Shown here piece after piece: positions 5,925-47,145 of a DNA stretch of 64,000 bases. Origin of the DNA: a virus; the IMG/VR virus record IMGVR_UViG_3300029984_000001, positions 186,001 to 250,000 of that record; one strand, given 5' to 3'. How positions within the stretch are numbered: the first letter of the stretch is position 1; each line of letters opens with the position of its first letter. The notes under the pieces were generated by a model. The model worked only from the letters and a program-made list of their open reading frames with translations. It did not search any database and was not told the origin of the DNA. Both the position numbers and the translations under genes were made by a program.

Positions 5925-8045
5925 ATGAAAAGCGAATTTATTGATGACATTATACAAGACTTGAATGACATAGTTTTATACTATGATAACTATTATGTAT
6001 TTGCAGATTTTGCAAAAAATAAACAAATGATATTTGATGTAAGAACACTAAATATCAATAATTATGATGCTCATTATACTGGTATATTGAATCTGATGAA
6101 AGATACAATAGAAACAGAATATATGACAGATTACATGATTACATTAAAATTCGATGAAGATAAGTACTGTAAAATGAGTATACCTGATTTATGGATGAAT
6201 CTTATAATGTGGTATATCATAGTAAAGACAAATAGAGTAATTAAACCTAAATACATATTCTTTGAAGATTGTATCACAAAGAAAAACATTAAAGAGTACA
6301 TAGACAATTATCTTATAGATGAGTATACTACATCTATTGATATTATTGATTTAAATAATATTATTGATGATTGTCTTCATAAACTGTTAGATATTAATGA
6401 ATTTAGTATGTTCCTAGCTAATACTATCAACTTGGAAGACTTCGTAATACTAATGAATGAAGATCCAAGATTTAATGAATGTATACATGCCAATATAGGA
6501 AAAGACGTTCCTTTAGATGAAATAAAGAATGTAGGAATGGATTATACTATGGAAGCTGTAGAAAGAATTAAACAATCTAAACATGGATTGGCTAGTTTCT
6601 TTAGGGCACAAGAAGGAATTAATACGAAACAGTTTAAAGAGTTTGGTATCAATATTGGTACTAAACCAGACGGTATGGGTGGGATATTTCCTACAGTAGT
6701 AAATACAAACTTCTTAATTGGAGGTGTAAATGATTTACTATCATACCACATAGAATCCCATAGTGGGCGTCTTGCTCAAATAATAGTCGAAGATAACGTA
6801 TCCGATTCAGGATATTTTGCTAGACTATTGGGTATCAATAATATAGATTCTTTTAACCACGAAGATCCAAATTATGATTGTGGAACTAGAAATTTCGTAC
6901 CAGTTACTATAACTAGAAAGAATATAAGATTATACAATTCAAGGTTTTATAGAATGACTCCCAATGGTATGGAATATCTATTAAAAGAAACTGATACACA
7001 TTTATTTGACAAGACAATATTTTTACGTTCTCCAATGACATGTCGTTCTCATGTAGAAGGACATGGCATTTGTTATAAGTGTTATGGTCATCTAGCTTAT
7101 ATAGTTAGATTAATCAATGCAGGAAAAATAGCAGCAGAATTAATGTCATCTGAATTAACTCAAAAAATGCTATCTGCTAAGCATTTATTGGAAGCCGCAG
7201 TAAGAGCACTAATATGGAGTACAGGATTTGTTGACTATTTTATAGTCGATTGGAATAATTTGAAATTGAAACCTGATGTTGATTTTACTAATTGTAAACT
7301 TGTTATTGCAGCTAATACTATATGGATAGATTCTGAAGAAGAAGATGAAATGAGTGGGGAAATGAGAGAATATATTCCTAATTTCCATATTCAACTATCA
7401 GATGGTAATAGAATACAAATAAAAACTGCTGATTGTAATGACTTGTTTTTAACAGCTGATTTAAATAACTCTATAAGAGAATATGGAATACCTGGAGATA
7501 ATCATGAAATATTGATAGATCTAGATAAACTTAAAGGTTTACCTTTGTTCTCTGTAGATAATATTAATAACGATCTAAATGATACGTTAAATAAAATCAG
7601 AAAAACTATCAACCATAAAGATACAACAGAAGGTTTCAATATGCAACAAATTCTGGAAACATTACTGCATAATTTAGGAGAAGGAGGAATGCATTTATCA
7701 TCCGTACATGCAGAAACAATTATATCTAATCAAATCAGAAGTACAGATTTTATATTAGATAGACCCGATTGGAGTGTTCCTAATCAGAAATATAGAATAC
7801 TTGCACTTAAAACAGCTTTAACAAACCATCCTTCAATTAGTGTTACTATGGCATTTGAAGGTATTAAGGCTGCATTATACAATCCATTAACTTTTAAGAA
7901 GAATAAACCTAGTTTCTTAGATTTATTCTTTGTAGTAAAACCACAAGAATACCTTTCAGATAAAACAAAAGTTACTAAAACAACTTTTGGTGATAAAGAT
8001 TCGACTGGGAAAACGATATTTATGAAACGTGATAAATTAGAATAA
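5925..8045 (+). CDS. DNA-directed RNA polymerase beta' subunit, C-terminal half (phage multisubunit type)
   Basis: The 706-aa protein carries the second half of a bacterial-type beta' subunit. Around residues 222-275 is the bridge helix/trigger loop region: GTKPDGMGGIFPT, then NTNFLIGGVNDLLSYHIESH and NVSDSGYFARLL, aligning with AKPDG, [21 protein letters not shown] and TANSGYLTRRL of bacterial beta'. Around residues 372-424 is a second zinc-binding region (CRSHVEGHGICYKCYGHL) followed by AAELMSSELTQKMLSAKH, the counterpart of the conserved GEPGTQLTMRTFH region. The matching N-terminal half is on the minus strand at 36228-39093. The protein ends in IFMKRDKLE, the recurring FMxRD terminal peptide. 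Whether it is a virion or non-virion enzyme cannot be told from sequence. Confidence 0.92.
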   Translation: MKSEFIDDIIQDLNDIVLYYDNYYVFADFAKNKQMIFDVRTLNINNYDAHYTGILNLMKDTIETEYMTDYMITLKFDEDKYCKMSIPDLWMNLIMWYIIVKTNRVIKPKYIFFEDCITKKNIKEYIDNYLIDEYTTSIDIIDLNNIIDDCLHKLLDINEFSMFLANTINLEDFVILMNEDPRFNECIHANIGKDVPLDEIKNVGMDYTMEAVERIKQSKHGLASFFRAQEGINTKQFKEFGINIGTKPDGMGGIFPTVVNTNFLIGGVNDLLSYHIESHSGRLAQIIVEDNVSDSGYFARLLGINNIDSFNHEDPNYDCGTRNFVPVTITRKNIRLYNSRFYRMTPNGMEYLLKETDTHLFDKTIFLRSPMTCRSHVEGHGICYKCYGHLAYIVRLINAGKIAAELMSSELTQKMLSAKHLLEAAVRALIWSTGFVDYFIVDWNNLKLKPDVDFTNCKLVIAANTIWIDSEEEDEMSGEMREYIPNFHIQLSDGNRIQIKTADCNDLFLTADLNNSIREYGIPGDNHEILIDLDKLKGLPLFSVDNINNDLNDTLNKIRKTINHKDTTEGFNMQQILETLLHNLGEGGMHLSSVHAETIISNQIRSTDFILDRPDWSVPNQKYRILALKTALTNHPSISVTMAFEGIKAALYNPLTFKKNKPSFLDLFFVVKPQEYLSDKTKVTKTTFGDKDSTGKTIFMKRDKLE

Positions 8046-19939: not shown

Positions 19940-21700
19940 ATGGCTACAGGAGGAACAAGAAAAAAGAAAATAGTATCTGATGGTTATAGCAATAGTCCGT
20001 TTGCAGGAATTTCAGGACAATTTAGTAAAGTTGCTAAGGAAATTCAAATACAAGAAGGTGTCGATTTATTTGGGCAACCTGCATTAGCATTAAATAATCC
20101 TAAAGTAGTAAATACTTTAGAAAGTTTCTTTATAGAAGGTACTTATGATCAAAAATTATATGATGGTACTACTAGAGGATATAATGCAAGAGCTTTACAA
20201 GAATATAAAAATGATATGAAAGAGTTATTTAAAAATGACGTTGAAGCTATTACTGAGTATACAGCAATGAATTCAGTGAACCCTATTGTTACAACAGGAT
20301 TAGCAATGCATAAATTAATTGCATTAAGAAATATATTTAGACAAGGTGTAATTCAAACTAACGTTGCAGTTGAACCTAGATTTACAATCAAGATGCAACA
20401 TAGATATTTAATAACTCCAGATGGTAAAGAATTAGATTTAGTATTAGACCAAAATAAATTATCTGATGCTTTCAATTCAATTAACCCTAAGAGAGTTGTA
20501 ACTTTAGAATTTACTGGAAATACTTGTAATACTGCTACTTTTGTTCCTGGTAAAAGATTAGTGGAATTATGTGGTGGTGTATTAGGTAGAGACAATCTAA
20601 ATACAGATACCGAAATTCATGCTATTTACATAGAAGTACCAGATGAAGCTGCTATTAAAGCAGGTACTCTTGGAGCTACTAAAATAGAAAAGATTAAAAA
20701 GAGAATTCAATTTACTCCTCAATATGGTCCTAATAATATTACAGGGTTTAATCAACCTTTAGATTTAACTAAATTCGTTGAAGGTGCAACCGATTTATTT
20801 TCAGGTACATTAACTAATAATGAAATGATGTTAATAAGTGGATTAGGAATTATAAAGAAAGTAGATATTAGAATTCAATTAGATCCTTCTAATGGTTTAC
20901 TATCAACATGTAGAGCAGGTTGGAGACATGATGAAACATTGGTCACTATTCCAAATGCTAACCCAATGAATATTCCAATATCTCCTGAAGAAATTAAGGA
21001 TATCCAAGCTATGTATGGAATAGATCAACTATCTATGTATATGTCTATAATTAATGATGTATTAGGAAATGTTAAGGATGATAGTATCAGAAAAGATTTA
21101 TATGCTTCTTTTGATAATATGAATGCGTCTGAAAGAAAAGTTAGTTGGTTTGATTTCGAACCAAGAGAAGGATATAATAGAGATCATGTAAGTTGGAGAT
21201 ATTCTTCATTCATGGATATATTTGATACATTTGTAACAGATTTATTATATATCTTGAATGATGAAGACGTTACAGTATCTATATTTGGTAGACCAGATGT
21301 AATTAGAAAGATTACTCCTACTGATTACAGCTACCAAGCACCATCTAGTATAGGACCAGTAAGTCTTGAATATACTAGAACTATTGCTACATCTGACAAC
21401 AGAGTATACAACTTTGTATCTTCTCAAAAGTTAGGAGCTAGTAATGACTTAACAGTTATTCTAAATCCAAATAATACAGATAGAATTATATATAGAGTTT
21501 ACGATTATCAATTCTACGTTTCAAATGAAATCAAGAATGCTGATAATCATGTATTACCAGGTGTTCATGCATTTGAAAGATTCAAATTCTTAGAATATCA
21601 ACCAGTACAAGGTAAGTTCAGAGTATTTAATCCATCTGGTAGAAATGATGATAATACAAAATATCAAGATCAACTTAAAGATTTAAGAGATATAGCATAA
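19940..21700 (+). CDS. Major capsid protein (probable)
   Basis: AAGGAGGAATTAC precedes the ATG. The 586-aa protein has a conserved-looking core near residue 110-150 (AMNSVNPIVTTGLAMHKLIALRNIFRQGVIQTNVAVEPRF) followed by KMQHRYLITPDGKELDL. This layout I associate with capsid proteins of large myoviruses, where an N-terminal arm precedes a helix and a beta-rich HK97-type domain. It is flanked by the acidic scaffold-like gene and a strong terminator, and the prohead protease is nearby. It is well expressed by ribosome-site strength. A sheath protein is the main alternative, but the gene order favours capsid. Confidence 0.72.
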   Translation: MATGGTRKKKIVSDGYSNSPFAGISGQFSKVAKEIQIQEGVDLFGQPALALNNPKVVNTLESFFIEGTYDQKLYDGTTRGYNARALQEYKNDMKELFKNDVEAITEYTAMNSVNPIVTTGLAMHKLIALRNIFRQGVIQTNVAVEPRFTIKMQHRYLITPDGKELDLVLDQNKLSDAFNSINPKRVVTLEFTGNTCNTATFVPGKRLVELCGGVLGRDNLNTDTEIHAIYIEVPDEAAIKAGTLGATKIEKIKKRIQFTPQYGPNNITGFNQPLDLTKFVEGATDLFSGTLTNNEMMLISGLGIIKKVDIRIQLDPSNGLLSTCRAGWRHDETLVTIPNANPMNIPISPEEIKDIQAMYGIDQLSMYMSIINDVLGNVKDDSIRKDLYASFDNMNASERKVSWFDFEPREGYNRDHVSWRYSSFMDIFDTFVTDLLYILNDEDVTVSIFGRPDVIRKITPTDYSYQAPSSIGPVSLEYTRTIATSDNRVYNFVSSQKLGASNDLTVILNPNNTDRIIYRVYDYQFYVSNEIKNADNHVLPGVHAFERFKFLEYQPVQGKFRVFNPSGRNDDNTKYQDQLKDLRDIA

Positions 21701-25187: not shown

Positions 25188-27107
25188 ATGAAAATCGTAA
25201 AGAATAATGTAATTAATAAGGAAGCAACGAGATTATTTCAATCAGAGACATTAAAAGGATTAGCAGAATCAATAATAACTTCAGCAGGACCACAAGGATC
25301 AGGTACTAAAATAATATTACATTTAGCAAACGATCCAGAGAGTCCTAATAGAAATGTACCTATAGTTAAATATAGTAAAGATGGTCATAGTATCTTAAGT
25401 TATATATCTCATTGTGATAATGGAATGCTTTGCAACTCTGTATGTAACGATGTTTATGAAATGACTACTTATGTAAAGAAGAAAATTGGAGATAATTCAA
25501 CCGCTACTGTATGTATGGCTTCACGAATATTTGATAATCTTGTTAAAGTAGAAACCGATACAAAACTTCCTCCAAGAGAAATAATCAAACAATTTAAAAA
25601 AGCTGTTGAAATGATTACAGTTAGAGTAAAAGAAAAAACACAAGAATTTACTCCTGAAGAAGCTTATAATATTGCATACATATCTTCTAATGGTGATGAA
25701 GAAGTTGCAAATAACATAAAACAAATTTACGAAGAATTTGGTAAAGAAGTATATATAGATATTGGAATTTCGAATGATGAACAACATAAAATGAAAATAA
25801 TGGATGGTATGAGTATTAGTACTGGATACAATAGTCCTGCTTATCGAAATGATTTGCAAAAGAATATTGCATCTATTCCAAAACCAAGAATATACTATTT
25901 CCAAAATATGATTGATACTCCTGCTCAAATTGCATTATTAGCAGCAATTGTTGTAAAAAATATAACAGATCCTTACAGAACTAATAAATTAGAAAATGTA
26001 ATTCCTACAGTAATATTAGCACCACAATTAGCTAATGATGCTATCGTTGAATTAAATGAAGTTATTAGACTTATGCAAATGTATGATAAACCTGAACATA
26101 TTAAGAACAAACCACCGTTATTAATTGTTACTGGGATATTTGAAGATGAGGCCACAGATGATATTGCTAGATTGTGTGGATGTCCTCCTATTAGAAAATA
26201 TCAAAGTTTAGAACAACTAGAAAAAGATAAAGAATCAGGTAAAGCTCCTACTACTGAAACTATTGTAGATAATTGGTATGGAAGTGCTGATGTAGTTGTA
26301 GCTGATGCTGTTAGTACTAAATTTATTAATCCATTATTAAAATATACAACTAAAGGTGAAGAGAGAAAAAGAGTATGTGAACAAAATAAAGAGAAATTTG
26401 TTCCTGCTGAAGATGATAATGAAGAAATCTTCAGTGCTCATTATAATTCATTAGTTACTGCATTAGAAGCTCAATTGGAATTAGAAATAAATAATAATGC
26501 TACTATGGATATTACAGGTTCATTAACTAGAAGAATCAATTCATTAAAAGCTAAAGTCGTAGAATATCAAGTTGGTGGTATTGCAATAGCTGATAGAGAT
26601 TCTTTAAAAGATTCAGTTTGGGATGCTATAAGAAATTGTAGATCAGCGGCTAAATCTGGTGTTGGATTAGCATGTAATATGGAAGGTTATTTTGCTTGTC
26701 TAGAAATATTGAACAATACAAAAGCAGATGATGATTCTACAGTTATCAAATTTGTAGAAATGATTCATGATTCTTATGTAGAATATATATCTTCATTATA
26801 TGAATTTACATTTGGTATTGATAAAGATGAATGTTTAAGATTATTAGAAACTAATTCTAGAACAAATGGAATAGTAGATTTATCTCAAGGATATGATAAA
26901 GAAACTGTAGATAAGGTGATATACAATACAAAAATTAAATCATCTATAAATGCAGATATAGTTACATTAGAAGCTTTATCTAAAATATTATCTTTAATGA
27001 TGACATGTGCTCAAACTCTTATACCAGAACCATTATTAGATTCATATACAGCATTTGTAGATAATAGAAAAATTCAAGATAAATTAGTTAAAACATGTAG
27101 ACTATAA
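25188..27107 (+). CDS. GroEL-type chaperonin (phage-encoded), 639 aa
   Basis: TTAGGAGGAATAAT precedes the ATG. The sequence follows group I chaperonin order: an N-terminal helix with LKGLAESIITSAGPQGSGTK, GDNSTATVCMASRI at residue 101 (GroEL GDGTTTATVLA), AYISSNGDEEVANNIKQIYEEFGKE near 166, then KIMDGMSISTGYNSPAY near 204 (GroEL EGMQFDRGYLSPYF), and an apical region. At 639 residues it is about 90 longer than GroEL. A few jumbo phages encode such chaperonins, known or proposed to fold phage proteins without a co-chaperonin. No GroES gene is visible in this window. Confidence 0.87.
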   Translation: MKIVKNNVINKEATRLFQSETLKGLAESIITSAGPQGSGTKIILHLANDPESPNRNVPIVKYSKDGHSILSYISHCDNGMLCNSVCNDVYEMTTYVKKKIGDNSTATVCMASRIFDNLVKVETDTKLPPREIIKQFKKAVEMITVRVKEKTQEFTPEEAYNIAYISSNGDEEVANNIKQIYEEFGKEVYIDIGISNDEQHKMKIMDGMSISTGYNSPAYRNDLQKNIASIPKPRIYYFQNMIDTPAQIALLAAIVVKNITDPYRTNKLENVIPTVILAPQLANDAIVELNEVIRLMQMYDKPEHIKNKPPLLIVTGIFEDEATDDIARLCGCPPIRKYQSLEQLEKDKESGKAPTTETIVDNWYGSADVVVADAVSTKFINPLLKYTTKGEERKRVCEQNKEKFVPAEDDNEEIFSAHYNSLVTALEAQLELEINNNATMDITGSLTRRINSLKAKVVEYQVGGIAIADRDSLKDSVWDAIRNCRSAAKSGVGLACNMEGYFACLEILNNTKADDDSTVIKFVEMIHDSYVEYISSLYEFTFGIDKDECLRLLETNSRTNGIVDLSQGYDKETVDKVIYNTKIKSSINADIVTLEALSKILSLMMTCAQTLIPEPLLDSYTAFVDNRKIQDKLVKTCRL

Positions 27108-36227: not shown

Positions 36228-36434
36228 TTAATAAAATTCTATAGGAGTTAATTTCTTTTGTGTTTGTGGGAGTATTAAAGTAAAATTATATAATGCTTGT
36301 ACTGTTTCATTACTAGATACATGAACATTCTTTCCACCTAAATCTATATAGTATCTTTTAGAATTTATATATTCATCTAATTCTTTATTAGATTCAATTG
36401 TATAAGCTACTTTAGCGGTTAACTGATCACCATC
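36228..36434 (-). CDS. RNA polymerase beta' N-terminal half, exon 2 (catalytic DGD exon)
   Basis: The first codons are GAT-GGT-GAT-CAG-TTA (D-G-D-Q-L), which join to G-D-Y at the end of exon 1 to give G-D-Y-D-G-D-Q, the phage version of the invariant N-A-D-F-D-G-D-Q catalytic Mg-binding motif of beta'. The remaining residues (LTAKVAYTIESNKELDE, then SSNETVQALYNFTLILP) fit the stretch after that motif. The exon is 68 codons plus stop. The subunit then continues as a separate polypeptide encoded at 5925-8045. Confidence 0.88.
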   Translation of the reverse strand, partial: DGDQLTAKVAYTIESNKELDEYINSKRYYIDLGGKNVHVSSNETVQALYNFTLILPQTQKKLTPIEFY

Positions 36435-37665
36435 CACACATTAACCTATTGTGAACGCAACTTCACCAGAAGATTTTCATCTTCCCAGACTATATCATCC
36501 CTTATGGGCTACCTCTTTCGAATCTATCATAAGCTTATAGATCCTACTCTACTCAATATTAAAGTTATATTTATTTGATATTTCGGTATGAGATTCTTTT
36601 CTTTTTATCCTACCAATTATACTTCTTTGTTGTTGAAATTCCCCTGGTAGTTTCAATTCATCTATAATTGCTCTAGTTGAATATCCTTTAGATAATAATT
36701 TACAAATGTTTTCTACATATGGAAAGAAATCTATTTGAGGTTTCTTCTCTTTAAATTTATATAATGTGGATATATGTTTCCATCTTTTACCTTTAATAAT
36801 ATGACTTACATTAAATCTATTATTTTCAGTATTTTCCATATTAGATTTTATTAAAGCATTTCCATATGAATCTCCATCTTGAACATATTTGCAAATACTA
36901 TGTACTTGTTCTTCTGTCCATTTACTCATACCATTATTTTCTCCATAAGTATTTTCTCCAGTACCCCAACCTCCATCTTCCTTGACAAATCTTGATTCAA
37001 CATGTTTAGAAAATTCTCTATCTGTATCTTTATTTTGAAACTCATGTTCAAGATTTTCTAGTTGAGTACACCATTCTAAATTACCATAGAATGCATCTGA
37101 TCTACATAAATTTTTATGGTTTACTTGAGTTTTATTTATTGGGTCTGGATTAAATACATACATGGTAGCAACCAAAATATGTACAAAGAAAGATTTTCTA
37201 GTAGAATCATTTAATTGTAAAGATACTGATAAATATCCATTAGATAGTGCTACCGATAATAAATTACCTTCTATATTTAAAAATCTACCATAATTACTTA
37301 TCTTATAACCTGTTCTGATATTATAACATTGTAAATCTACCCATTGTTCTATAGGATTAGGATATTCTATTAATGGGTTTATACCTTGTGAGAAATCGTC
37401 TCTTATCATAAAACTTTTCATTTATTCTCATCTCCTTTCGTGTATATAATATATAACTTTAATATCTTTTGATAGTCGTTGAACGTTCCCTATACATCAT
37501 CATATAAGGCTTCGATGCTGATTACCCAATTATTAATCATTCTCAAGCATTCACGCTTATAGTTTCCCATTACGTTGTAGCTGATTAACTTACAAGGGCG
37601 TTCCAGCAGTTAAGGTAGTTTTTGTTTCGACGCACATCGTCAAGAAGACTACAATGGTGAGGTTT
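36435..37665 (-). mobile_element. Group I intron in the RNA polymerase beta' gene
   Basis: This 1231-nt insertion lies exactly between G-D-Y and D-G-D-Q of the beta' catalytic motif. Exon 1 ends in U and the intron ends in G. P1 is well supported: exon AGACUAU pairs over seven positions with intron GUAGUCU, with the U-G wobble at the splice site. P7 can form between GACTAT (complement of 37471-37480) and ATAGTC (complement of 36487-36496). The core segments GTTCAACGACTATC and GATATAGTCT match the first intron. It carries a full HNH endonuclease ORF. Splicing is inferred from sequence only. Confidence 0.9.
36549..37421 (-). CDS. Intron-encoded HNH homing endonuclease (NUMOD4-HNH)
   Basis: GAAAGGAGATGAGAATAA precedes the ATG at 37421. 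The 290-aa protein has a NUMOD4-like start (IEQWVDLQCYNIRTGYKISNYGRFLN), a typical HNH block (FVHILVATMYV, QVNHKN, NLEWCTQLENLEHEF) and C-terminal DNA-binding repeats (GMSKWTEEQVHSICKYV, HIIKGKRWKHIS, and GYSTRAIIDEL). It should cleave intronless beta' alleles and so spread the intron. It begins MKSFMIRDDFSQG, an N-terminal FMxRD motif shared with unrelated phage proteins and with the remnant ORF of the other intron. Confidence 0.9.
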   Translation of the reverse strand: MKSFMIRDDFSQGINPLIEYPNPIEQWVDLQCYNIRTGYKISNYGRFLNIEGNLLSVALSNGYLSVSLQLNDSTRKSFFVHILVATMYVFNPDPINKTQVNHKNLCRSDAFYGNLEWCTQLENLEHEFQNKDTDREFSKHVESRFVKEDGGWGTGENTYGENNGMSKWTEEQVHSICKYVQDGDSYGNALIKSNMENTENNRFNVSHIIKGKRWKHISTLYKFKEKKPQIDFFPYVENICKLLSKGYSTRAIIDELKLPGEFQQQRSIIGRIKRKESHTEISNKYNFNIE

Positions 37666-39093
37666 ATAGTCTCCTTCTACTTTTTTGAGATGCAAATTAC
37701 TGATGTTTAAAGTATCTCTAAATCTAGATGATGTATTAGTACCTATATCTTCCTCTCTTATTTTTGGATAATAAGGATAGAATTCATTATTTATATAAAT
37801 ACCTTCTGTTTCTACTGTAGATGAAATTCTAATTTTATTTGGGAATTGACCGAAATAAGTATTCATAGGATATCTTGTTAATAATACATGTTTATCTTTA
37901 GACATTTCTACAGCAGCCATATAAAAAATATCACACCAACATAATCTTCTATGATAAATAGATGATACATCTTCTTTATCCATTTCATCTTTAGTATCTG
38001 TATGAGGAGCATTGTTACCTTTAAAGTACATATATCTCATTTCACCTGTAGTTAATTCTACTTCTATAGGAATGAATCTATTTGAATATCCATGTATAAA
38101 TCTTTTCATTTGTTTTTTAATTACATCATCTGAAAATTGCACATAAGGATTCTTTACTTGTACTACTTTAGGATTACCCTTATCATCATATAATACTTTT
38201 TCATTAGTACCACCGAATTCATTTTCAAAGAATCTTCTACACCAGAATAATATATACGGATATAGATTTGCTAAGGCTGATGCTAACGGTAAAGCACAAT
38301 GTCTTAAATCAACCATTAAATCATCTACTGATTCTACATTTAATTCAGGAGCCGATATAACTAATCTAGAAGAATAATCTGAAGTCTTTGCCATAACTGT
38401 TCTTTTTATGATTCCATATTTCTTTCCTAGATTTGGTTCTTGAGTAAACCAATCATATACTCTAACTAATAATTCCTGTATTCTTCCTATAGTAGCAGAT
38501 GTCATTGAAAATCCAAAATCATCGGATTCTCTTAATGCAGCTGAGGCTATAATTAAAGAATTATATATCTTATTAATTTCTCCTACTCCTAAAGTTTTAT
38601 TTCCAGTATTTACATCTCTATAGTATGCAGGTATTACTATATACTTATCTAAAAATAATGTATTATTCTTTTTATTTCTATTTATAAAATCTATATTTAT
38701 ATCTCTTTTGAGAGAGTCTGTAGATTTTATTTTTATCTTATCTATATTATTTTTTAAGAAGTCTACCCCATTTTCTCCATTCTCATCTTCTTCTAATTGT
38801 CCTTGAGAATTAATCTTAAAATTCTTAGTCCCATGAACACATTCTTTTATTTTTCTATCCATTCTACACCATATTTTATATGATAATGGATCTATGAAAT
38901 TTTTGTGTAGGTCAATATAGGCAAATATATTGGCTCTTTGATCTTTAGATAAACCAAAAACTTCATTAGATAATAAACCGTCTGATGTAGGTACTCCATT
39001 ACTAAAAAAATATATAGGATTGGTAATCTGTTTTAAATTATTCTCTTTAATTAATCGACTAGGACTTAATGTCTCTAACTCTAAATGTTTCAT
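37666..39093 (-). CDS. RNA polymerase beta' N-terminal half, exon 1
   Basis: AAAGGAG precedes the ATG at 39093. The 476 codons encode PTSDGLLSNEVFG near residue 35 (beta' clamp start GLFSERIFGP), YIVIPAYYRDV near 150, KRTVMAKTSDYSSRLVISAPELN near 240 (beta' GKRVDYSGRSVIVVGPELK) and LLTRYPMNTYFGQFPN near 400 (beta' RAPTLHRLGIQAF region). It ends in KKVEGDY, to which exon 2 adds DGDQ. The usual first zinc finger of beta' is absent. Spliced, the protein is 544 residues. Without splicing the frame runs into the intron and stops at 37585, giving a polymerase without its catalytic aspartates. Confidence 0.9.
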
Positions 39094-44500: not shown

Positions 44501-44526
44501 GAACTTTAGAATAAGAGGTGATTAAT

Positions 44527-47145
44527 ATGCCAAGATATAACGCTAATGAAATTGTAAATGAATCAAGTAAATCAAATGAAAAACATTTATATTTTCTATC
44601 TAAAGATAATATGGATAATAAAACATTATATCCTAGAGTACCTGAGAATTATTTCACTAAGAATGGTCATGAAGATAATGAAACTAAAAGAGTTTGTTTT
44701 GCTACTTCTATACATAAAGCATTGATGGCTATTTCTATGAGAATGAAAGATATGATATTATATGTACATGTCCCTAAAACTATGAATATAGAGACATATA
44801 AACCTACAACAAAACAAGTTCCTGATTGTAAGATAACTGGAGAAACATGGGTTACTCATCCTATAGGACTAAAATGTATAGGGAAAATAAAAGTAATAGA
44901 TGATTCTGGAAAAGATGGTCATAAATTTAAATACGGGGATAAAGAAGCTGAATTGTATGATTGGGACTGGGAATGGATTGAGAAGGATAAAGATATTATA
45001 AAGGAAAGATCTATAGTGAAAGAAAATCTATTAATTTCCGATAAAGATTTTTCAAATAATTTAGAGAAATGGGAGGATAGTAATTATCCAGTTTTATTAA
45101 TCACAGGTCTATCGGGCGGTGGAAAGTCTACATTAGCTAATCAATTAGCTAAAGAATATAAAGCTGATGTAGTAGAATTAGATCAATTAGAATATAATCA
45201 TAATAATTCAAAAAATAACTTTCTTAAAAAATTTATGGAAAGCGACTCAAAATATAATCAATATAATCATATAAGTGAATATTGGAAAGACAAGAATGAT
45301 AATACAGATAAAGATAAATTAATAAAAACAGTAAAAGAATATATTCATTTCTGTGTATCTTATGCTTTAAAGAACAATATTAAAACTATAATAGAAGGTA
45401 TACAAATATATCAATTAATGTATACTAAAGAGGATTTGATTTATATGACTGATAAACCTATAATAATTATGGGGTCATCTCCTCTAATATCAAAATTAAG
45501 ACAATTTAAAAGAATAATAAGTGGAGGTAACGGTGGACAAACATTAAAAACACTTATTCAAGATAATAATTATTTAAGTGATTTTAGAAATGACATAAAA
45601 TCTACAATAAAAGAAACAAAGGAGGATGATGAAATGGGTATTAGATTTAATTTAAATGAAAATAAAGAAATTATAGTAAGACCACAATATGAATTATGTT
45701 TATTAGAATCAGGAGTATCTTATCAAAAGAAATATAAATGTCCTTATTGTGAAACTAGATTAGATAGACAAAAACTTATAACTCATATTTTAGATGAGCA
45801 TGAAGATTTCATACCAGAAAATTATACTGCTACTAGAATTGTATTTAATATAATAAATAAAAAAGAAAAAGGTAGTTGTGTTATATGTGGTAAAGAAACT
45901 TTATGGGATGAGAATAAAGCTAAGTATGATAGATTCTGTTGTGAGAAATGTGTACAAGATTATAGAAAACAAAGAGATGAAGCTATGATACGAACAAAAG
46001 GTAAATTATATGTAACAGATGATCCAGAATTTCAAAAGAAGATGTTAGCTAATAGAGGAATATCTGGAGAATATATATGGTCAGATGGAATAAAGAGAAC
46101 TTATACTGGTAGTTATGAAAAGAAATTATTAGAGTTCTTGGATGAAGTAATGGGATTTAAATCATTGGATGTTATTACACCAGGTGATACAGTTTTATAC
46201 GAAGATAATGAAGGTAAAGAACGTGCTTGGATATTGGATGTAACGATTATTCCTTATAATTTACAAATAGATGCTAAAGATGGAGGGGATAATCCTAATA
46301 ATAGAGAGATGCCTGAATATAGGGCTAAACAAACATCAAAAGAGAAAGCCATATTTGAACAAGGTAAATATAATTATCTAAGACTTACTAATAATAACTT
46401 TGGGCAATTAATAAATACTCTGGCTCAAATTAAATTAAATCTATTAGATAATAAACAAGATAAAATATGGCACGTAAATGAATATATGGCTATGAGTGGA
46501 GTTAATCCTGTGGTTACTAAAACAGCAGATTCTAAACCAGTATCTTACATAGTTCCTTGTATGATTCAAAATTCATTTGTAGAGCCATTATATTCTAGAG
46601 ATCAATATTTAGAAAAATTATATAGAATTGTAGATGGTAAATTAATATTAACTAATAGATCTGAAGTTAAGAAACAATTCGATGTATCTACTAAACTATT
46701 AAAATCTAGTGTAGCTGATAAAGTAAAAATCGGTATAGATGAATTAATTACTAAAGAACAATATGTAGATCATAACATGATGTTTGAAATGTTAACAGGT
46801 CATCAATTATTAGATAAGAATCAATATTTCTTTGACGAGAATTTAGAGGTGGAATTGGAGGGTTTTTATAAATCTAAAATAAGAAGGGATATTATAGAAG
46901 CTACTTTTTCAAATCTTCTAAATCAATATAAAGTATCTATTTGTGAGAATGCTCATAATATTAAATATAAAAATTTGACAATATTAAGAGATAATAAAGG
47001 ATTCTATGCTTATAATGAAGAAACGAATAAAAGAACTGGAAGTTATGAATTAATAAACGAGATACCAGATGAAGTATTGGATTTATTGAATGATGATGAT
47101 TTCTTAGATACAGATGATGATTTTAACTTTGAAGAAATCAGTTAG
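44527..47145 (+). CDS. Three-part protein: N-terminal phage domain, P-loop kinase-like domain, and zinc-finger nuclease-like domain, 872 aa
   Basis: The start is the ATG at 44527 behind AAGAGGTGATTAAT. Residues 1-150 (LYPRVPENYFTKNG, VCFATSIHKALMAISMRMK, ILYVHVPKTMN, GETWVTHPIGLKCIGKI) form a conserved-looking domain I cannot name. Residues about 185-350 hold a P-loop GLSGGGKS with DVVELDQLEY, typical of small nucleotide or nucleoside kinases. From residue 370 come a C2H2-like finger (CPYCETRLDRQ then HILDEH), a second zinc pair (CVICGKETLW, FCCEKC) and ERAWILDVTIIPYNLQIDAKDG, resembling a PD-(D/E)xK or Vsr-like nuclease core. A perfect internal ribosome site at 45621 suggests the nuclease part is also made separately. 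Confidence 0.72.
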   Translation: MPRYNANEIVNESSKSNEKHLYFLSKDNMDNKTLYPRVPENYFTKNGHEDNETKRVCFATSIHKALMAISMRMKDMILYVHVPKTMNIETYKPTTKQVPDCKITGETWVTHPIGLKCIGKIKVIDDSGKDGHKFKYGDKEAELYDWDWEWIEKDKDIIKERSIVKENLLISDKDFSNNLEKWEDSNYPVLLITGLSGGGKSTLANQLAKEYKADVVELDQLEYNHNNSKNNFLKKFMESDSKYNQYNHISEYWKDKNDNTDKDKLIKTVKEYIHFCVSYALKNNIKTIIEGIQIYQLMYTKEDLIYMTDKPIIIMGSSPLISKLRQFKRIISGGNGGQTLKTLIQDNNYLSDFRNDIKSTIKETKEDDEMGIRFNLNENKEIIVRPQYELCLLESGVSYQKKYKCPYCETRLDRQKLITHILDEHEDFIPENYTATRIVFNIINKKEKGSCVICGKETLWDENKAKYDRFCCEKCVQDYRKQRDEAMIRTKGKLYVTDDPEFQKKMLANRGISGEYIWSDGIKRTYTGSYEKKLLEFLDEVMGFKSLDVITPGDTVLYEDNEGKERAWILDVTIIPYNLQIDAKDGGDNPNNREMPEYRAKQTSKEKAIFEQGKYNYLRLTNNNFGQLINTLAQIKLNLLDNKQDKIWHVNEYMAMSGVNPVVTKTADSKPVSYIVPCMIQNSFVEPLYSRDQYLEKLYRIVDGKLILTNRSEVKKQFDVSTKLLKSSVADKVKIGIDELITKEQYVDHNMMFEMLTGHQLLDKNQYFFDENLEVELEGFYKSKIRRDIIEATFSNLLNQYKVSICENAHNIKYKNLTILRDNKGFYAYNEETNKRTGSYELINEIPDEVLDLLNDDDFLDTDDDFNFEEIS
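45621..45636 (+). promoter_or_regulatory. Internal ribosome-binding site for the nuclease-like part (ATG 45634)
   Basis: AAAGGAGGATGATGAAATG gives a GGAGG eight bases before an in-frame ATG at 45634. The product would be a 503-residue protein (45634-47145) starting MGIRFNLNENKEI. The site falls exactly between the kinase-like and zinc-finger/nuclease-like domains. Confidence 0.6.

Follow-up and report, generated by a model that had tools for sequence, protein, structure and literature searches.

Introns in jumbo phage RNA polymerase genes

Several described phages carry introns in or near the codons for the catalytic aspartates (DxDGD) of the multisubunit RNA polymerase (RNAP). In Bacillus phage AR9/PBS1 the genes for the N-terminal beta' subunits of the virion and non-virion enzymes (g145 and g270) contain, like the locus presented here, introns with homing endonuclease genes in this motif. 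Introns are annotated in both AR9 polymerases; by sequence they lie at DYD^GD in the virion RNAP (vRNAP) and at DYDG^D in the non-virion RNAP (nvRNAP), where the caret marks the insertion. The structure of the product corresponding to the spliced nvRNAP gene, made from synthetic genes, has been solved and shows an ordered 370-DYDGD-374 (PMC9209446). The AR9 vRNAP intron differs from ours in lying one codon downstream and in encoding a Hef-like endonuclease, and further upstream its gene, unlike ours, also contains a group II intron. Staphylococcus jumbo phages Madawaska and MarsHill and Serratia phage 2050HW also have a group I intron in beta', with cores that match ours at 73-79%, but the insertion is two codons downstream (DFDG^D), and the 2050HW intron, unlike ours, is without an endonuclease. 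The exon junction is annotated in the Madawaska and MarsHill records and was placed at DFDG^D by sequence.

The endonuclease of the PhiPA3 vRNAP beta intron, gp210, has site-specific nuclease activity by experiment and interferes with PhiKZ in competition (PMC11620839). Like ours, its group I intron encodes an HNH endonuclease and lies at conserved aspartates in the vRNAP of a jumbo phage, but it occupies the beta rather than the beta' subunit and a different site. I-HmuI of phage SPO1 (1u3e), to which our endonuclease aligns, is likewise an HNH nuclease with a NUMOD4-type start, but it resides in a different host gene; in SPO1 this is the DNA polymerase gene. The part of a NAR 2025 paper drawn on here pictures introns that have invaded beta' N genes and describes neither several positions within DxDGD nor micro-exons (PMC12350094). 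An intron at this place is not unprecedented, since AR9 and other sister phages carry introns only a few bases away; what is new is that the motif looks like an intron hotspot.

An interrupted virion-type beta' gene

The window analyzed here, a stretch of 64,000 nucleotides, comprises bases 186001-250000 of a 263,571-base virus record. Its features of interest are collected in Table 1. We judge, with a probability of roughly 0.93, that the virion-type beta' N gene of this uncultured jumbo phage is interrupted after the second codon of DxDGD by a mobile group I intron, which has an HNH endonuclease gene in P8; splicing, cleavage and homing would take place at this site.

Table 1. Features of the interrupted beta' N gene (positions in the window)
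Feature	Position	Strand	Details
Exon 1, virion-type RNAP beta' N-terminal subunit	37666..39093	-	476 codons, MKHLELET...VEGDY
Group I intron	36435..37665	-	1231 nt; P1/P10, RF00028 core, blastn to phage introns, compensatory pairs vs L016
Internal guide sequence, P10 strand UCACCAUU	37653..37660	-	pairs with exon 2 start GAUGGUGA (36427-36434)
Internal guide sequence, P1 strand GUAGUCUUCUU	37642..37652	-	pairs with exon 1 end AAGGAGACUAU (37666-37676), U.G at splice site
Core, P4-P6 to P7 5' strand	37473..37608	-	RF00028, 33.6 bits, model positions 60-148
Intron-encoded HNH homing endonuclease, P8 loop	36549..37421	-	290 aa; NUMOD4 + HNH_3; phrog_59, E=8e-29
P7 3' strand, UAGUC within GAUAUAGUCU	36488..36492	-	conserved in 6/6 aligned introns; pairs with GACUA
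P9 (GAAGAU-GAAA-AUCUUC) and P9.1 (GUGAA/UUCAC) hairpins	36451..36484	-	two both-sided changes in L016 preserve P9.1
Exon 2	36228..36434	-	68 codons + stop, DGDQLTAK...PIEFY; holds Asp 2 and 3 of DxDGD

Residues 4-476 of exon 1 match the PHROGs family phrog_2986 (E=1e-59), and tblastn with this exon finds jumbo-phage beta' subunits (182 phage records). A Pfam search with exon 1 and a search of the whole genome with PF00623 gave no match. Past VEGDY the reading frame runs into intron codons (KPHHCS...) and stops after 26 residues. When the exons are joined, the product aligns over its full length with the subunits of the intronless Listeria phage LPJP1 and Bacillus phage Goe21, DYDGD being invariant, and a profile of these three proteins matches PDB beta' chains, including AR9 nvRNAP. 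The phrog_2986 match, the DxDGD of the joined product and the PDB profile matches place the gene in the jumbo-phage virion RNAP beta' N family. The gene for an RNA polymerase beta subunit (phrog_3015) is also found in the window, at 5925-8045.

The initial annotation had put a group I intron inside the DxDGD motif of beta', at 36435-37665. These coordinates proved exact, the intron reading on the minus strand, and the guide pairing, the RF00028 core matches and the alignment of the joined protein all bear out the assignment. Translation confirms that exon 1 ends in V-E-G-D-Y and exon 2 starts with D-G-D-Q, so that the intron lies between codons 2 and 3 of the motif (GDY^DGDQ). The sequence also agrees with the claim that the last two metal-binding aspartates, D477 and D479, are encoded after the intron, and D475 before it. 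Beyond what had been annotated, our analysis identifies the subunit as virion-type, the intron gene as an HNH/NUMOD4 endonuclease, a non-virion paralogue, and annotated precedents in AR9, MarsHill and Madawaska.

Guide sequence and catalytic core

A P1 helix of AGACUAU with GUAGUCU, with a U.G pair at the splice site, had been proposed at the outset. This helix is real but was understated: P1 (11 bp) and P10 (8 bp) together form 19 contiguous base pairs, of AAGGAGACUAU^GAUGGUGA with UCACCAUU-GUAGUCUUCUU. Among 2000 random 60-nt segments of the window compared with the same junction, the best complementarity was 15. The last base of the intron, 36435, is G (omega-G).

The 5' half of the intron and an endonuclease-less homologue were scanned with RF00028 in place of the whole intron, whose core is split by the endonuclease gene. 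This homologue, in the 82% relative L016, retains the intron without the endonuclease and has no ORF as long as the 290-aa protein. The 5' half scored 33.6 bits (E=3e-7), short of the gathering score of 50, which is a library threshold rather than a structural feature; the L016 intron (42.9 bits, E=1e-9) is likewise below it, and an Rfam search of the whole window at the gathering cut-off found no match. The low score of our intron probably arises because the endonuclease gene splits the core. Related phage introns in L003, L021, L044, L048 and L033 exceed the gathering score, and blastn with the intron finds related cores in 211 phage records. The insert has a P1 with U.G, a terminal G with P10 and, in the part of the core traced here, conserved P4-P6 and P7. 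Its group I identity, the exact splice sites, the target gene and the position in DxDGD are therefore supported, and splicing is the predicted outcome.

In the mechanism that we propose, P1 would mark the final U of the GAC-UAU codons as the 5' splice site, where a G-cofactor reaction at P7 would cut. P10 would hold exon 2, and joining of the exons would restore GDYDGDQ in a subunit of 544 aa, with GGAGACTAT/GATGGTGAT as the predicted spliced junction. From unspliced RNA only a 502-aa protein could be made, with just one of the three Mg-binding aspartates.

The intron-encoded endonuclease

Complementary P8 arms flank the HNH/NUMOD4 ORF in the sequence. The active-site H and N are in place when the protein is aligned to I-HmuI (1u3e), and the usual DGNKxNN stretch is missing. 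The same target site is intact in intronless relatives (L017, L028, L029, L080, L081 and others). With an endonuclease gene in a peripheral loop and such uninterrupted relatives, the intron is, on sequence grounds, of the mobile type. The most likely role of the endonuclease is to cut or nick alleles that lack the intron (GGNGAYTATGATGGTGAYCA), into which repair would then copy it.

The intron may serve its phage in some further way that leaves this anatomy unchanged, the endonuclease acting as a weapon against co-infecting intronless relatives or splicing timing the production of the polymerase. We regard such an added role as a minority possibility: PhiPA3 gp210 provides a precedent in its action against PhiKZ (PMC11620839) and relatives with an uncut site exist, but the L016 intron does without an endonuclease, which is therefore dispensable there.

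Covariation and occupied sites in relatives

The DY^D site is also occupied in L016, L023, L027 and L033. Where the exon sequence has changed, the guide shows a matched change: in L016 exon 2 GATGGAGA faces guide TCTCCATT, in L023 exon 1 GCGACTAT faces guide GTAGTCGT, and in L027 GACGGCG stands opposite guide TGCCGTT. That the guide tracks the exon suggests selection on splicing at exactly the DY^D junction. Because a MAFFT alignment of six cores was poor in the peripheral regions, the helix comparison was confined to the window and L016. Among 71 helix pairs, placed manually with both sequences as a partial guide, 10 are changed on both sides and 3 on one side, and none is unpaired in L016.

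Values of dN/dS against L016 are 0.12 for exon 1 and 0.17 for exon 2, which indicate that both exons are under purifying selection; the latter value implies that exon 2, although it follows the intron, remains in use. These data bear on the reading that the intron is dead and the gene decaying, its exons being pseudogene fragments or products of an assembly error from which no polymerase is made. The slightly degenerate endonuclease motif would fit such decay. A pseudogene is nevertheless rejected on covariation and dN/dS, the core and guide pairing being preserved by matched changes and both exons by selection. Moreover, the identical sequence also occurs in a second IMG/VR record, L015, L016 has the intron even in the absence of its endonuclease, and the genome yielded a single virion-type beta' N gene. 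We therefore consider a decaying gene very improbable. Both inteins and translational bypass occur in phages, and removal of the insert as an intein or its bypass in the manner of T4 gene 60 can be dismissed almost outright, since the 1231 nt contain in-frame stops, impossible for an intein, and the complete group I guide and core argue against either.

No near-identical pair of phages with and without the intron was found for exactly this site. AR9, which has an intron, and Goe21, which has none, encode almost identical proteins, and the distribution of introns on the gene tree is patchy.

The DxDGD motif as a probable recurrent insertion site

A census of 34 non-redundant virion-type genes, which includes metagenomic contigs, derives from pattern-limited scans and takes the LY01 site from its match to MarsHill, found an intron in or beside the motif in 14 and none in 20. 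A scan for non-virion beta' returned few loci, and the census was restricted to the virion-type enzyme. The introns lie at six positions, each of which follows a T. The most upstream is GG^D (L024, L033), followed by GGD^Y (tentatively, in L044), DY^D (the window, L016, L023, L027, L033), DYD^G (AR9), DYDG^D (L021, L048, L044 and the Staphylococcus phages) and DYDGD^Q (L045). Other introns in the beta' N gene are found near residues 245 and 410-418. On the gene tree at least 9 changes of intron state are required, and one tight clade contains all states: no intron (L028, L080/L081), DY^ (L023), GG^ (L024) and both (L033).

L033 appears to carry two group I introns with a 6-nt micro-exon between them. 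At 6458-6974 GATTAT, which encodes Asp-Tyr inside DxDGD, stands between two RF00028 matches, both full (95.4 and 78.9 bits), and a third match lies upstream at 5988-6216; this double arrangement was seen in one contig only. In L044 (5783-6493) a 9-nt micro-exon, TATGATGGT (YDG), may be situated between two introns. Its upstream insert has a good P1 and P10, but it has no RF00028 match and ends in A, and we thus regard this micro-exon as tentative.

It is probable, in our view, that the DxDGD codons of jumbo-phage RNAPs take up mobile introns time and again, at six points within 18 nt and always after a T, with introns repeatedly gained and lost and sometimes stacked; the two-codon micro-exon of L033, which holds a catalytic Asp, would have to be spliced on both sides. 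Active-site codons may suit such insertion on two counts: they do not vary, and GGT GAT TAT GAT GGT GAT supplies, at nearly every codon end, the U that the obligatory U.G pair requires. What is usually called the most conserved motif of multisubunit RNA polymerase would then be a repeated target of mobile introns in jumbo phages. The natural series of alleles with no intron, one at either site, or both provides a test of how endonucleases choose their sites and how ribozymes handle two-codon exons. There is a practical warning as well: gene prediction programs cut phage polymerases short immediately ahead of the catalytic aspartates.

A second beta' N gene and other interrupted genes

The initial annotation had named a second intact beta' N-terminal gene elsewhere in the genome as evidence against a split gene. 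The genome does contain a non-virion paralogue (L060, G000:C1:62800-67500; 33% to AR9 g270), itself split after NRNP by a different HNH-endonuclease intron, with an intact DFDGD downstream. As this is a different enzyme, it does not refute the splitting of the virion-type gene. The PhiKZ-like non-virion beta' gene of Pseudomonas phage 9Ps-7B (L072, 255200-258300), annotated as a truncated subunit, has an HNH-endonuclease intron at KAPN^ADFDGD.

Also in our phage, a type II topoisomerase-like gene (L062, G000:C1:103000-105000) has an HNH-endonuclease intron just before the metal-binding-like sequence ADKDGDHI, and an NrdD-like ribonucleotide reductase gene (L061, G000:C1:30000-31200) apparently has two group I introns within it. 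Elsewhere in the window, a GroEL-like chaperonin (phrog_5725) is encoded at 25188-27107, downstream of the major head protein gene (19940-21700), and an 875-aa protein with a P-loop NTPase-like region and an endonuclease-like domain (phrog_15137) at 44518-47145.
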